Shown here: one piece after another, positions 29,260 through 55,625 of the stretch
How positions within the stretch are numbered: the first letter of the stretch is position 1
How the letters are laid out: each line of letters opens with the position of its first letter
Origin: an uncultured Methanobrevibacter sp.
GTDB lineage: Archaea > Methanobacteriota > Methanobacteria > Methanobacteriales > Methanobacteriaceae
Assembly: GCF_902801725.1 (NCBI RefSeq)
Contig: NZ_CADCJB010000002.1
Span: 1 to 64,000 of the forward strand
Direction of reading: 5' to 3'
Length of the DNA stretch: 64,000 nucleotides
The notes under the pieces: generated by a model
Told to the model about the DNA's origin: nothing
The model's database searches: none
What the model saw: only the letters and a program-made list of their open reading frames with translations
Program-made: the position numbers and the translations under genes

Positions 29260-30142
29260 AAAATTTGATATATTTTATTGTCACATATACTACTATAGCT
29301 GTAGCTATAACTGTTTCTATACTTAAAACATTATTTAAAATAATATTGAATCCTGTTTTTGACATTACTCCCTTTGTTGCAAGTCCACTTATGACAAATG
29401 GGAAAGTAAATGCTGCAAAGCTTGGGTAAAATTCCAAGTTTCTGTATTCTATGAATTTTGCCAATGCAAATATGTAAAACATGCAGGCAAATGTATACAT
29501 TCCAATTAAGAACTCTATTGATATATTATTGTATGAATTCAGATAACCTACAATCAATATGCTCATAACAGCTGTAAAAATACATATCAACGGTTTATTG
29601 GCATTTGGAATGTCTTTATGTTTGATGTATCTGTATATCACGAGAGGCAATGTCAATATCATCCCTATAAATCCAACCAAAAAGAAGATGAATCCTATTT
29701 CATCAAGATTGTGTGCATGTGCAGTAATTGCTCCCATGGTGATTCCTACAAACACTATCCAGTAGCTGGGATAGACTGTCGAAATATCAAAATTATGTAT
29801 TATGAAATGATGGGTAAAGTAAACTATCAGCAAAATATGCAAGGCTACACCCAATATCCAAATACTATATGCAATATCAGGCATAAATGTTATGAGATAT
29901 GTAGATAAAATCATCAAACTCATTGAAAAGGTACCTGAATTACTTGCAATTACTGGATTTTTAAAATCTTGTCTGATTTTTTCAGGGTATATGACTAGCT
30001 TTAAGAGTATTAAAATAAGAAATATCATACCTATTGTCCCGCAGATTGCCTTTAAGAGCGGATGAGTATCATTTAAAAGATTTCCAAGTGAGAAAAATGC
30101 TAGAATTAATCCGCATAGGGGAATAGGTATTTTTTCAATCAT
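29246..30142 (-). CDS. TDT/SLAC1-family (TehA-like) transporter
   Basis: 298 aa with about ten membrane segments. The N-terminus IPIPLCGLILAFFSLGNLL and segments such as YPSYWIVFVGITMGAITAH and FYPSFAAFTFPFVISGLATK match the tellurite-resistance/dicarboxylate transporter family, which includes anion channels. The substrate is unknown. Single gene. Confidence 0.85.
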   Translation of the reverse strand: MIEKIPIPLCGLILAFFSLGNLLNDTHPLLKAICGTIGMIFLILILLKLVIYPEKIRQDFKNPVIASNSGTFSMSLMILSTYLITFMPDIAYSIWILGVALHILLIVYFTHHFIIHNFDISTVYPSYWIVFVGITMGAITAHAHNLDEIGFIFFLVGFIGMILTLPLVIYRYIKHKDIPNANKPLICIFTAVMSILIVGYLNSYNNISIEFLIGMYTFACMFYIFALAKFIEYRNLEFYPSFAAFTFPFVISGLATKGVMSKTGFNIILNNVLSIETVIATAIVVYVTIKYIKFLSRN

Positions 30143-30193
30143 GTTATGATATTAGTTTTCAAAAAATAAAAATGATATTGGTTTTTGAAGGTA

Positions 30194-30949
30194 TCATAAT
30201 TTGAAGAAATCTTCTGCATTTTTATGGGATACCTTTTCAATATCATTTTTAGCATAACCAAGTCTTTCTAGCTCCCTAACTGTCTTTGGAACAGAAAGGG
30301 GATCTGATGGCTTGTTGCTGATGTCACTATTTAATAGGAACTTGTCAAATCCATATTCATCCAAAATTGATATTGCTTCAGTCTTGTCCATTTTCTGAGG
30401 CTGAACAGTTAAGCCAAGCATACAATCGGTATCTATGGCATCTTGCACAACATTTGGATTGACATGATCAATTACTGCCTGTTTTTCATCTAAATGTTGT
30501 GGTAAAATTTTTAAAATCTCTTTCAGAACTTCTTTTTTGTTCTTTCTTGGAGTATGGATAATTACATTGGATTTTGTTTCATCGGCAATGTCCAGTTGTC
30601 TTTTGAATATGTCGATTTCGGTGTCTGTCAAATCTTCAAGACCGATTTCTCCAATGGCTATTATTTGCTTGTTCTCTATCCATTTGTATATATTTTCAAA
30701 GATTTCATCAGGTTTAACGTTTGAATTTGTCGGATGTATTCCCAATGCTGCCTTCATATTGAGGCCGTGCTCTTTTGCCCTTTGAGTGTCCAATTCCAGA
30801 ATCCTATTGAGATGGTTTAGGAGAATCATTTCATGCTCTATTTTGTAGGGATAGTAGCTGCATGTGATGGCAGTGTCGATTCCCGCAAGATACATCTGTT
30901 CAAAATCTTCGCCGCTTCTTGAATCTGCGTGCATGTGTGTGTCAATCAT
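30194..30949 (-). CDS. TatD-like archaeal amidohydrolase
   Basis: 251 aa. First-strand metal ligands are present (MIDTHMHADSRSGEDF, H-x-H), then ALGIHPTNSNV, IIAIGEIGLEDL, VIIHTPRKNK, VIDHVNPNV and the terminal LLNSDISNKPSDPLSVPKT. It is the archaeal branch of TatD-related metal-dependent hydrolases, distinct from the TatD at 16.3-17.1 kb, which has altered first ligands. The substrate is unknown. It stands alone between the TDT transporter and a divergent regulator. Confidence 0.85.
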   Translation of the reverse strand: MIDTHMHADSRSGEDFEQMYLAGIDTAITCSYYPYKIEHEMILLNHLNRILELDTQRAKEHGLNMKAALGIHPTNSNVKPDEIFENIYKWIENKQIIAIGEIGLEDLTDTEIDIFKRQLDIADETKSNVIIHTPRKNKKEVLKEILKILPQHLDEKQAVIDHVNPNVVQDAIDTDCMLGLTVQPQKMDKTEAISILDEYGFDKFLLNSDISNKPSDPLSVPKTVRELERLGYAKNDIEKVSHKNAEDFFKL

Positions 30950-49189: not shown

Positions 49190-50629
49190 CTACATTAAGG
49201 CAAATGTCAGGACAGGAACATATAGAATATTACGCTTGAATTCAATTTTTGAGGTTCTGTTGGAAACCAATATTCCATACTCTGCACCGTATTTGCTTTT
49301 TGCCCTTGTAAGTTGGCTTTTGGTTTTCTTGCCGATGCCAACTTCAATAGGTATGACCTCGTCCAGGTTCTTGACAATGAAATCAACACCTTTCCTGTTG
49401 GAGTCATAGAAGAGTCCCAATGACTGCAAGGATTCATCCGACAATCTGTTTAATGCGGATGCGACCATATTTTCAACAAGCACAGCATAACACTTCTCGT
49501 GATTCAGGTCATATCGGCCCACACGATAGTTCAATGCGGATTTGATGGAAGGCGCCAAAAAGAAATGCTGTTTCGGTTTGTTGAGTATTTTGCCTGCAGA
49601 TCCGTATGCACTGATGCTGAATATCAGTTGAGATTTTTCCAATGCTTCCAAAATACTGTCGACTGTTCTGACATTCAGATTGAGGCTTTGAGCCAGAGAT
49701 GAGGATGAAGTGGTTCCAGGCTTTTTGGTGGCCAAATATGAAATCAATCTCAAAATGCTTGCATTGGTGCCATTGTTGAATGAAGCAAAATGCTTCAAAT
49801 CATCCAGGACAATCCTCTCCACCATATCATTTGTCAGCCTATGGGCTGAAATTTCTGAAATGTTCAGTGCAAACGGGAAGCTTTGCGAATGAATATATTT
49901 TTTAAATTCCAGTTCAGGGTCATTATCCAATTGAATCATGTCCTTTTTGATGATGTTTTCACATTCCATTGCCTCATCAACAGTATGAGGATTCAACTTT
50001 AAAATCAAATCCCTGAAATTGTTTTTTGTCAGGTTGACGTTGTGTTTTAAAAGGAGGTATTCCTGAAAGCTGCATGGCAACAGCTGTTCTTTTGTGATTC
50101 TTCTTGAGGCATCAACATTAAGTTCCAGTCCGAGGGCTGATGAACCTGTAAAAATCATGAATATATTGAATGTTTTATTAAAGAGCAATCGTGCGTAATC
50201 TGCCCAGTTTTCATCCAATTGCGCTTCATCAACAAAAAAGAAGATTTTTTTGTCCAGACCTGCGGGAATTGTTTGGTGAATGTCCTCTAAATATAGGTCA
50301 AATACTTCTTTGATGCCTGTATCATACACGCTTTTTAAATCATGCACGTCCAGATAGAATATGTTGTCCTCCGGAACGTTTTTCTGTTTTGTCAGATAAT
50401 CGTATAACTGATACAATATTGTTGTTTTGCCTACGCCCCGCAAACCGGACATCATTATGAAACGATTATAGTACTCTAAATTGGTATTTAAGAAATTATC
50501 AGCATGTTCTTTAAGTTTAATGAATTTTAAACGTTTGTTATCGATTTCTTCCAAATGGTTGGCTGACAGGATTCTTGTTTCCCTTTGTTTTGCGTGAATG
50601 TAGTTGATCAATTCCTGTTTTGACGGCAT
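49190..50629 (-). CDS. AAA ATPase with DUF4143-type C-terminal domain
   Basis: 479 aa. Walker A SGLRGVGKTTILYQL near residues 61-75, Walker B IFFFVDEAQLDENW near 128, sensor FTGSSALGLEL, a winged-helix region (SLAQSLNLNVRTVDSILEAL), and a C-terminal PD-(D/E)XK-like segment (GVDFIVKNLDEVIPIEVG then KKTKS). Such ATPases are frequent accessory genes in methanogens, and their function is not settled. GAGGGA precedes ATG 50629. The upstream promoter region carries a triple palindrome array, so expression is probably tightly repressed or cooperatively controlled. Confidence 0.9.
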   Translation of the reverse strand: MPSKQELINYIHAKQRETRILSANHLEEIDNKRLKFIKLKEHADNFLNTNLEYYNRFIMMSGLRGVGKTTILYQLYDYLTKQKNVPEDNIFYLDVHDLKSVYDTGIKEVFDLYLEDIHQTIPAGLDKKIFFFVDEAQLDENWADYARLLFNKTFNIFMIFTGSSALGLELNVDASRRITKEQLLPCSFQEYLLLKHNVNLTKNNFRDLILKLNPHTVDEAMECENIIKKDMIQLDNDPELEFKKYIHSQSFPFALNISEISAHRLTNDMVERIVLDDLKHFASFNNGTNASILRLISYLATKKPGTTSSSSLAQSLNLNVRTVDSILEALEKSQLIFSISAYGSAGKILNKPKQHFFLAPSIKSALNYRVGRYDLNHEKCYAVLVENMVASALNRLSDESLQSLGLFYDSNRKGVDFIVKNLDEVIPIEVGIGKKTKSQLTRAKSKYGAEYGILVSNRTSKIEFKRNILYVPVLTFALM

Positions 50630-50675
50630 GCTTTTTCCCTCACAATTATCTTTTTGATTTTGATTTATATAATGC

Positions 50676-50772
50676 TATGCATCATAATGCATAATTACTA
50701 TATAAATAGTTATGTAGTATAATACATAATCAGTATATAAATAGCTATGTAGTGTAATACATAATATATAAT
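50676..50772 (-). promoter_or_regulatory. triple promoter/operator array of the ATPase gene
   Basis: Three 18-bp palindromes at 50676-50693 (tatgcat-N4-atgcata), 50711-50728 (tatgta-N6-tacata) and 50746-50763 (tatgta-N6-tacata) are spaced exactly 35 bp. On the minus strand TATA boxes (TTTATATA) lie at about 50699-50706 and 50734-50741, with a weaker one near 50764-50772. Each is placed so that transcription would start within the next palindrome. The 35-bp unit is an imperfect direct repeat (50696-50730 and 50731-50765). Confidence 0.75.
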
Positions 50773-51051: not shown

Positions 51052-51095
51052 AATTTTCACCCCCAATGATAATCGTTTGCGAATGAATATTCTTC

Positions 51096-51383: not shown

Positions 51384-51698
51384 GAAGACATAATTACAAA
51401 AATGCAAACCGAACAAAGAATATGCTTAATCCTAGATAATTATAGTGTCCACAAGTCTGCATTTATCAAAAAAATAGCCCTGTACCTCAATATTGAACTA
51501 ATATATCTTCCACCATACTCTCCTCACTTAAATCCAATCGAACAGATATGGAGACAAATAAAAATAGAAATAAAACATTATTATCTTGAATCAAAAGAAT
51601 TTCTGCAAGAACTAACTACAGAAACGTATAACAAATCGATTTCAGGAACCAAAGTTTATGACAAATGGCTCGAAACATTTATACCAAAAGTTTGGTAA
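51384..51698 (+). pseudogene. IS630-type transposase, C-terminal stub
   Basis: About the last 100 residues of a DDE transposase (full length about 340). The second Asp and the Glu of the triad are kept (LILDNYSVHKS, then PPYSPHLNPIEQIWRQIKIE), while the first Asp and the helix-turn-helix are missing. The frame is closed upstream by a stop at 51378-51380. Inactive remnant; no terminal inverted repeats found. Confidence 0.85.
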
Positions 51699-54365: not shown

Positions 54366-55625
54366 CAATGGAAAGGCCGTCAGCAAGGTCAGGGATGCAA
54401 GGACAAGTACAGGAAGTATGTGATGGAGGGAAACAAGATCATTCCCGGCGCATCTTCAATCAACTTTGATGAGATTTCCAAAAAGCGTATATATGATTCA
54501 ATTAATAACTCTTCATTTTCAAAGGTCGCATTGTTTAAGGAAAAGTACAATCAATTAAAATATAAGTTGGGAAGAATCCCTTCATTATATGACTTCGCAA
54601 TTAAAGGAGAATTCAATCCTGAAATAATCCTCAATCACAACAAGTTCGACACCTACCACACCTTCCTTGAATATGTCGAGGACGGCTACTCCTCACAGCT
54701 TTCAGAAGCCGAACTTGCACCGCTGAGATTCATAACCAAAAAGCTCATCAAGGGAATAAGGCCCCACGAGCTTGTGATATTGAGTTGCCTTTTATATAAT
54801 AAGTGTTTCACAATCAATCAGGTTGAAAGGTACCTCTATGAAACATATGGCCTTGAAGACCAGTTCGAATCGATTAAAAGCGCAGTCAATGTCCTGAGCA
54901 TGAACTTCTACCGGAAAGAAACAAGCGACGACTATCAGGCAAACACCATACAGTTCATCACTGATGATGACATCGATATCGAAAGGCTCTACTTCAACTT
55001 CGATAAAGACGTTTACGATGACCTGAAAAGCAATGGGGATTACAGGTTTGAAATGTCCGATTCATTCAGGGCAGCAACAGCAAATCCCGTCTGCTTAAAT
55101 CATATCAGGGATGCAATCAGATACGGATTCTACAAGTATGCCAATGTCTACGGTGATGAAAAGCCCTTCAAATGGTATGAGAAATACTCAAGGGAAGACG
55201 TCCTGAGGATTCTCAACTGGGAAAGGTTCATGAACGGACAGAACATTGGGGGATACAAGATAAAATACGACACCTGTCCGATTTTCGTAACCTACAACAA
55301 GGCAGAAGACATTTCACAGACCATCAACTACGAGGATCACTTCATAACAAAGGACACCTTCAACTGGATGAGCAGAAACAACAGGAAAACATCTTCGCCT
55401 GAACTGGAACCGTTAATAAACTACAATGGTGTAAACACACAGCTCTTTATTCAAAAAAGCAACGACGAGGGAATTGAGTTCTACTACATCGGCAAGCTGA
55501 CTCCATTGAAGTATAAACAGGTCTACAGAAACATAAACGGCAAGGACCAGCCTATAGTCAACTTCAAGTTCAGGATTGACCATGAGGTTAAGGATGAGCT
55601 GTACTCTTATTTTGTAAACGATTAA
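54366..55625 (+). pseudogene. C-terminal remnant of a DUF3427 DEAD/DEAH-box helicase
   Basis: About 400 residues from ATG 54423 (MEGNKIIPGASSINFDEISK) to the stop at 55625. The frame stays open upstream to 54366 with sequence that looks like a continuation (CKDKYRKYV). The C-terminal half (YSREDVLRILNWERFMNGQN, ISQTINYEDHFITKD, FYYIGKLTPLKYKQV) matches DUF3427, which normally ends a helicase of about 1000 aa, often with an N-terminal PLD nuclease. Those parts are missing, so this is a truncated gene; it might still be translated. G+C-rich codons (AAG, AAC, GAC) differ from the core genes. Confidence 0.75.

Follow-up and report, generated by a model that had tools for sequence, protein, structure and literature searches.

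The dyad array in front of the ATPase gene

The DNA analysed here (the window) is a stretch of 64,000 nucleotides from an uncultured Methanobrevibacter sp. (assembly GCF_902801725.1, contig NZ_CADCJB010000002.1), and its minus strand carries a gene for a 479-amino-acid ATPase with AAA_14, putative winged-helix and DUF4143 segments. Directly 5' of this gene, three consecutive 35-base-pair (bp) units were found at 50666-50770, each holding a stretch of inverted symmetry, or dyad. The dyad centres lie at 50684.5, 50719.5 and 50754.5, an exact period of 35 bp, and this confirms an earlier description made from the letters of the window (the sequence-only reading), in which TATA-plus-palindrome units were said to recur in the same phase. 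That description also set a TATA box about 25 bp ahead of each palindrome. A TATA box does go with each unit, but the relevant boxes are the TTTATATA boxes of the minus strand, since the gene is on that strand. The features of the locus are listed below from the outermost dyad towards the gene.

50746-50763, no strand: dyad 1, outermost from the gene; 18 bp, 7 of 9 pairs
50734-50741, minus strand: TATA box TTTATATA between dyads 1 and 2 (from sequence)
50711-50728, no strand: dyad 2; 18 bp, 8 of 9 pairs, centre 13.5 bp upstream of the inner TATA
50699-50706, minus strand: TATA box TTTATATA between dyads 2 and 3, the inner TATA (from sequence)
50676-50693, no strand: dyad 3; 18 bp, 8 of 9 pairs, centre 21.5 bp downstream of the inner TATA
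50664-50671, minus strand: TATA-like box downstream of dyad 3 (from sequence)
50638-50643, minus strand: GTGAGG, likely ribosome-binding site (read from sequence)
49190-50629, minus strand: 479-amino-acid ATPase with AAA_14, putative winged helix and DUF4143, matching PADLOC PDC-S01 (domain and profile searches)
49634-49705, minus strand: putative helix-turn-helix, codons 309-332, comprising helix 2, turn and recognition helix (model and covariation)

Read along the gene's strand, three dyads alternate with two TTTATATA boxes, and after the third dyad come the TATA-like box, the ribosome-binding site and the ATG. Counted from the first base of either TTTATATA box, one dyad is centred 13.5 bp upstream and its neighbour 21.5 bp downstream. 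The boxes that lie outside the outer dyads, at 50671-50664 and 50772-50765, are poorer fits to the consensus than the TTTATATA boxes. Judging from its distance to the ATG, the inner TATA (50706-50699) is most likely the main promoter of the ATPase gene, and dyad 3 would sit where the transcription start is expected.

It was confirmed that the three-unit 35-bp dyad array is a real, non-random feature. The 200 bp in front of the ATPase gene were resampled 20000 times with a first-order Markov model. Three dyads of the observed quality turned up at lag 35 in none of the resamples and at any lag of 25-45 in two, and a 24-mer self-match of at least 22 was obtained at lag 35 in none and at any lag of 25-45 in one. 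Furthermore, a self-match of 19/24 at lag 34 or 35 was seen in 0 of 421 AT-rich control windows elsewhere in the 64 kb. Since dyads at a loose cut-off are common at this base composition, it could be argued that the array is a functionless product of chance or tandem duplication in AT-rich DNA. The resamples and control windows speak against such an origin, as does the return of the same pitch in lineages with unrelated dyad sequences, and we find it scarcely credible.

Conservation of the dyad spacing across homologs

The sequence-only reading had tied a function of the array to its being kept with the ATPase in relatives, and such conservation was found in the genus, in the family, in another phylum and in plasmid homologs. 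Within the genus, 67 genomes were searched with the ATPase and 50 of them had a match. The 81 loci entered were reduced to 73 by removal of duplicates (L042, L023, L056 and L031), short entries (L034 and L099) and distant ones (L035 and L036); L024, which has no usable start codon, was also dropped. The lag count used 71 of the 73, as L015 and L016b had less than 120 bp upstream, and four near-identical pairs are left among the 73, one of which involves L016b and is outside the count. In these 71 Methanobrevibacter upstream regions the best repeat lag was 34 in 29 and 35 in 28 (57 together), with every other lag best in at most four. When the same 71 genes were anchored on the TATA box, the mean dyad score was 0.627 at -13.5 against about 0.35 elsewhere, with lesser peaks of 0.475 at +20.5 and 0.451 at +21.5. 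The nearest orthologs (90%, 81% and 70% identical) were shown to have TATA in the same position together with a related dyad, in one to three recognisable units. More distant homologs have the same layout with other dyads, such as GGTCAGTTATCTGACC, TTGTTCAAATATTTGAACAA, TTCAATATATTGAA and CTTGTACTAAATTATGTACAAG, and this supports the earlier proposal that symmetry is kept even as the sequence diverges.

The layout was also found beyond the genus. For other genera of the same family, 40 loci together with L110 and L127 were taken as part of all matches; one near-identical pair remains among these 42, the DNA upstream was long enough in 41, and the best lag was 32-35 in 32 of the 41. In another archaeal phylum, where 30 loci were brought down to 16 by similarity reduction, the best lag was 33 or 34 in 12, and a near-identical upstream region occurs on a Thermococcus plasmid. 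The plasmid-borne archaeal and bacterial homologs comprised 23 picks from the match lists. Two pairs among them are of close similarity; the lag is present in one pair and absent from the other. Twelve of the 23 had a best lag of 32-35, and 11 of the 23 were below p 0.05 against resamples. The archaea with this lag were Haladaptatus, Haloferax, Methanosphaera and Methanomethylovorans, and the bacteria were Emticicia, Runella, Segatella, one Parabacteroides, one Persicobacter and two Arcobacter relatives; at the Desulfosarcina homolog the lag was weak (p about 0.16). The plasmid homologs in which 32-35 was not the best lag include those of Microvirga, Azotobacter, Natrinema, Sulfuricurvum, Enterococcus and Thermococcus barophilus. 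Upstream of the ATPase on an Enterococcus gilvus plasmid (L215) a related long-dyad segment is present twice at a 39-bp step, which suggests that another pitch may be used in some bacteria.

The dyad layout is a family trait that travels with the ATPase. The conserved object appears to be the spacing of dyads around one promoter, with the number of units ranging from about one to four. As the 32-35 bp pitch is also found in bacteria, which are not known to have TATA/TBP promoters, it seems to belong to the ATPase, not to the promoter type. The proposal that each unit is an alternative promoter blocked by the same dimeric regulator was not upheld as a general reading: homologs with a single TATA between two dyads are common, and bacteria, where archaeal promoters are absent, show the 32-35 bp lag upstream of genes of this family too.

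Direct repeats that carry dyads and adjoin the gene of an AAA ATPase are reminiscent of iterons and centromere sites, and several of the homologs are plasmid-borne. The array might on this account be a DNA-processing site (plasmid-like iterons, or a partition or recombination site) on which the ATPase acts, the promoter being incidental. The dyad-to-TATA distance is fixed, however, one or two dyads are enough in many members, and the window copy and most homologs lie in chromosomal contigs of metagenome-assembled genomes with no conserved replication or partition neighbour. We therefore regard a processing site as very improbable.

Broken copies of the gene were also compared. In genome G010 the N terminus of a pseudogene is 98.6% identical to the intact protein of locus L016, and one unit is left in front of it against about four at L016, the TATA-bearing units being gone. 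No array was seen at the broken copy of G023. A tail-to-tail arrangement was noted for L016 and L017 (G033 and G010): G033 has two ATPases of different clades so placed, each under an operator type of its own, and G010 has a pseudogene with stops as the partner.

The ATPase as candidate reader and repressor

From one ATPase clade to another the dyads vary in sequence, as they do between paralogs in the same genome, and this variation tracks ATPase identity. In operator-similarity and covariation tests, made with the 97 of 112 sequences that had a joint TATA-dyad score of at least 19 (a score that itself rewards dyads), operator similarity climbed from about 0.55 below 45% ATPase identity to 0.95 above 90%. 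In five of seven variants the window that covaried best with the operator, among 470 of ten residues each, started at 309-316, in the putative helix-turn-helix; the ranking controls for identity elsewhere in the protein, the seven variants overlap in sequences and are not independent, and neither are the sequence pairs, so that no p-value is claimed. In residue-base mutual information the top pair was in the recognition helix (residue 321), and residues 281-340 held 18 of the top 100 pairs where 12.5 were expected, a mild enrichment that we treat as a lead only.

The segment concerned has the helices of a winged helix (about 286-301, 309-315 and 320-332) in a low-confidence model of the whole protein. 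This model was built from four sequences, and with a predicted local distance difference test score (pLDDT) of 47.9 it was too poor for more than its secondary structure to be used as support. A weak profile match (E about 0.01) likens the segment to MarR/ArsR domains. The sequence-only reading had named the ATPase, through its winged-helix segment, as a possible binder, and as a candidate it is supported by these results, the binding itself being predicted.

In its own genome the ATPase has no other close member; one further, more distant DUF4143 stretch (L101, G000:C21, about 29901-30305) is in a gene seemingly split over two frames. An operator within two mismatches was found there nowhere but at the array itself, and matches at three mismatches were at about control level. 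A similar search was made for a clade whose operator contains TGGTCA, in eight genomes. Among the matches listed, exact sites were in four of them (G008, G009, G066 and G074), and in every case the site precedes the ATPase of that clade. Sites with up to three mismatches were above control in seven of the eight genomes, and also in G013, where no ATPase of the clade was seen; thus the looser sites point to no regulon of the TGGTCA clade.

The earlier remark that no regulator gene is adjacent can be extended to the family, as no neighbouring gene family recurred in more than 3 of the 33 loci for which flanks, at most about 1.5 kb long, were examined, and the ATPase is the one gene that these loci share. 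Beside it in the window are large repeat proteins that look secreted and a fragment of a transposase, not defence genes. The transposase fragment (DDE_3, 98 amino acids), at 51402-51698 upstream of the array, is probably the remnant of an insertion element. An exact 15-mer, TTTGCGAATGAATAT, is present both inside the ATPase gene (49882-49896) and in the upstream intergenic region (51076-51090), and may be due to chance. Further away, a lone protein at 54420-55625 consists almost wholly of DUF3427, a domain that is usually the tail of larger helicase-like proteins.

Could the dyads be read by another protein? A global or other unlinked regulator might bind them in place of the ATPase, whose own binding we infer, and the neighbour analysis would be blind to an unlinked partner that is co-inherited. 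One global regulator was ruled out, since paralogs have different operators, which go with the clade of the ATPase. Together with the lack of a conserved neighbour in the loci examined, and with a winged helix in the ATPase that covaries with the dyad, this makes a reader other than the ATPase quite unlikely.

We consider it likely that the ATPase gene regulates itself with the array as its operator, and that the ATPase represses its own promoter by winged-helix binding of the dyads that flank the TATA box. Repression is proposed because the dyads are 34-35 bp apart, with one just upstream of the TATA and one at the expected start; the step from reading the dyads to repressing the gene is one that we infer from this geometry. 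The MarR-like winged helix of the ATPase would contact the dyads, the protein acting as a symmetric dimer or a pair of dimers. Dyads occupied on both sides of the TATA would keep TBP/TFB and RNA polymerase off and hold self-expression low, and each additional 35-bp unit would supply further sites for binding. The AAA domain might sense a nucleotide state, foreign DNA or a partner, and such a signal would free the protein and give rise to a burst of ATPase. Clade-specific dyads would let several paralogs share one cell without cross-talk.

The same operators might instead serve an ATPase that activates its own promoter by positive feedback. One dyad is always just upstream of the TATA, a position where archaeal activators also bind. 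The second dyad, however, is 20.5-21.5 bp after the TATA start, where a bound protein should block the polymerase, and activation is in our opinion unlikely.

Several observations weigh against self-repression as proposed above. The lag was not the best in 14 of 71, 9 of 41, 4 of 16 and 11 of 23 upstream regions, the region upstream of L095 has no recognisable array, and in some clades (L094, L070 and L079, for example) the repeats are weakly symmetric. A broken copy in G027 keeps its repeats. In two of the seven covariation variants the helix-turn-helix was not first, its best rank being 44 in other genera (n=28) and 36 among representatives below 75% identity (n=47). A model of the winged-helix domain had a pLDDT of 57.4, with a best Foldseek E value of 2e-3 and none below 0.001. 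A separate caution concerns the array itself: with a looser dyad cut-off (6/9), 264 of 20000 resamples had the dyads at lag 35 and 590 of 3000 at any lag of 25-45. As dyads at this cut-off are not by themselves rare in AT-rich DNA, the argument draws jointly on the quality of the dyads, their period and their conservation.

If the ATPase does read its own operators, its DNA targets would be predictable from sequence and there would be a way to find the inducing signal. The family would also supply many clade-specific protein-DNA pairs for working out a recognition code, and the presence of several paralogs per genome without cross-regulation would be explained.

Relation to known defence systems and regulators

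The window ATPase matched the PADLOC PDC-S01 profile over residues 58-477 (E 7.3e-35), and each of the 28 ATPases in an alignment that includes it gave matches to several PDC-S01 models. Residues E386, D416, E429 and K435 are invariant in these 28, and there is no lysine two residues past the last acid, where one is expected in the PD-(D/E)XK motif. A viral origin was considered and rejected, as one scan of viral_contigs with the 28-row profile gave no relative and PHROGs gave no match.

PDC-S01 was described, in the main text of PMC12988326, as a single-gene phage-defence candidate, an ATPase with a domain of the PD-(D/E)XK superfamily, and it was ranked there as the fourth most common defence in prokaryotes, which places it among their commonest candidate defence genes. 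The domain plan given there appears to agree with that of the window ATPase. Self-read operators such as those proposed here do not feature in that main text, where neither promoter nor operator is mentioned (PMC12988326), and the window copy was not located among defence genes. Operators at the AAA_14/DUF4143 (PF13173/PF13635) or PDC-S01 family are undescribed in the literature that was searched, which held few subscription papers and no preprints. It is tentatively suggested, as a somewhat doubtful extension, that PDC-S01 ATPases of archaea and some bacteria might sit on a promoter dyad lattice of 32-35 bp pitch with a lineage-private code and be released or titrated by foreign DNA, in which case occupancy of the operator would itself sense infection. 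If this were true, the same pitch at archaeal TATA and bacterial promoters would mean that the lattice is set by the assembly of the ATPase and not by the transcription machinery.

Like the arrangement proposed here, RptR is a repressor connected with defence, acting on a restriction-modification island (PMC12255303). It is a small separate protein of a bacterial island, whereas here the candidate binder is the ATPase itself, and the dyads here are 18-22 bp at a 32-35 bp pitch and differ from clade to clade; the likeness to RptR is one of mechanism, not of membership.

In Thermus thermophilus, RNA of TT_P0211, which shares the AAA_14/DUF4143 domains with the window ATPase, was up 6.6-fold with a plasmid in an Argonaute-positive strain (PMC4406477, section 7, where its promoter is not discussed), and a family member is therefore inducible. 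By analogy, this induction may be a lead to the signal that lifts repression. Upstream of a pTT27 homolog (L235, which may or may not be TT_P0211 itself) two strong dyads lie 35 bp apart; unlike those of the window array they differ in sequence, and the direct-repeat lag is outside 32-35.

Repressors of the MarR/ArsR type (MepR, SlyA and CzrA) combine a winged helix with dyad operators at promoters, as is proposed here, and the matches to them in sequence and fold are weak. They are stand-alone small regulators, whereas the winged helix discussed here lies inside a 479-amino-acid AAA ATPase. A feature of autoregulatory DNA-binding proteins is present, as symmetric candidate operator sites lie at the ATPase's own promoter.
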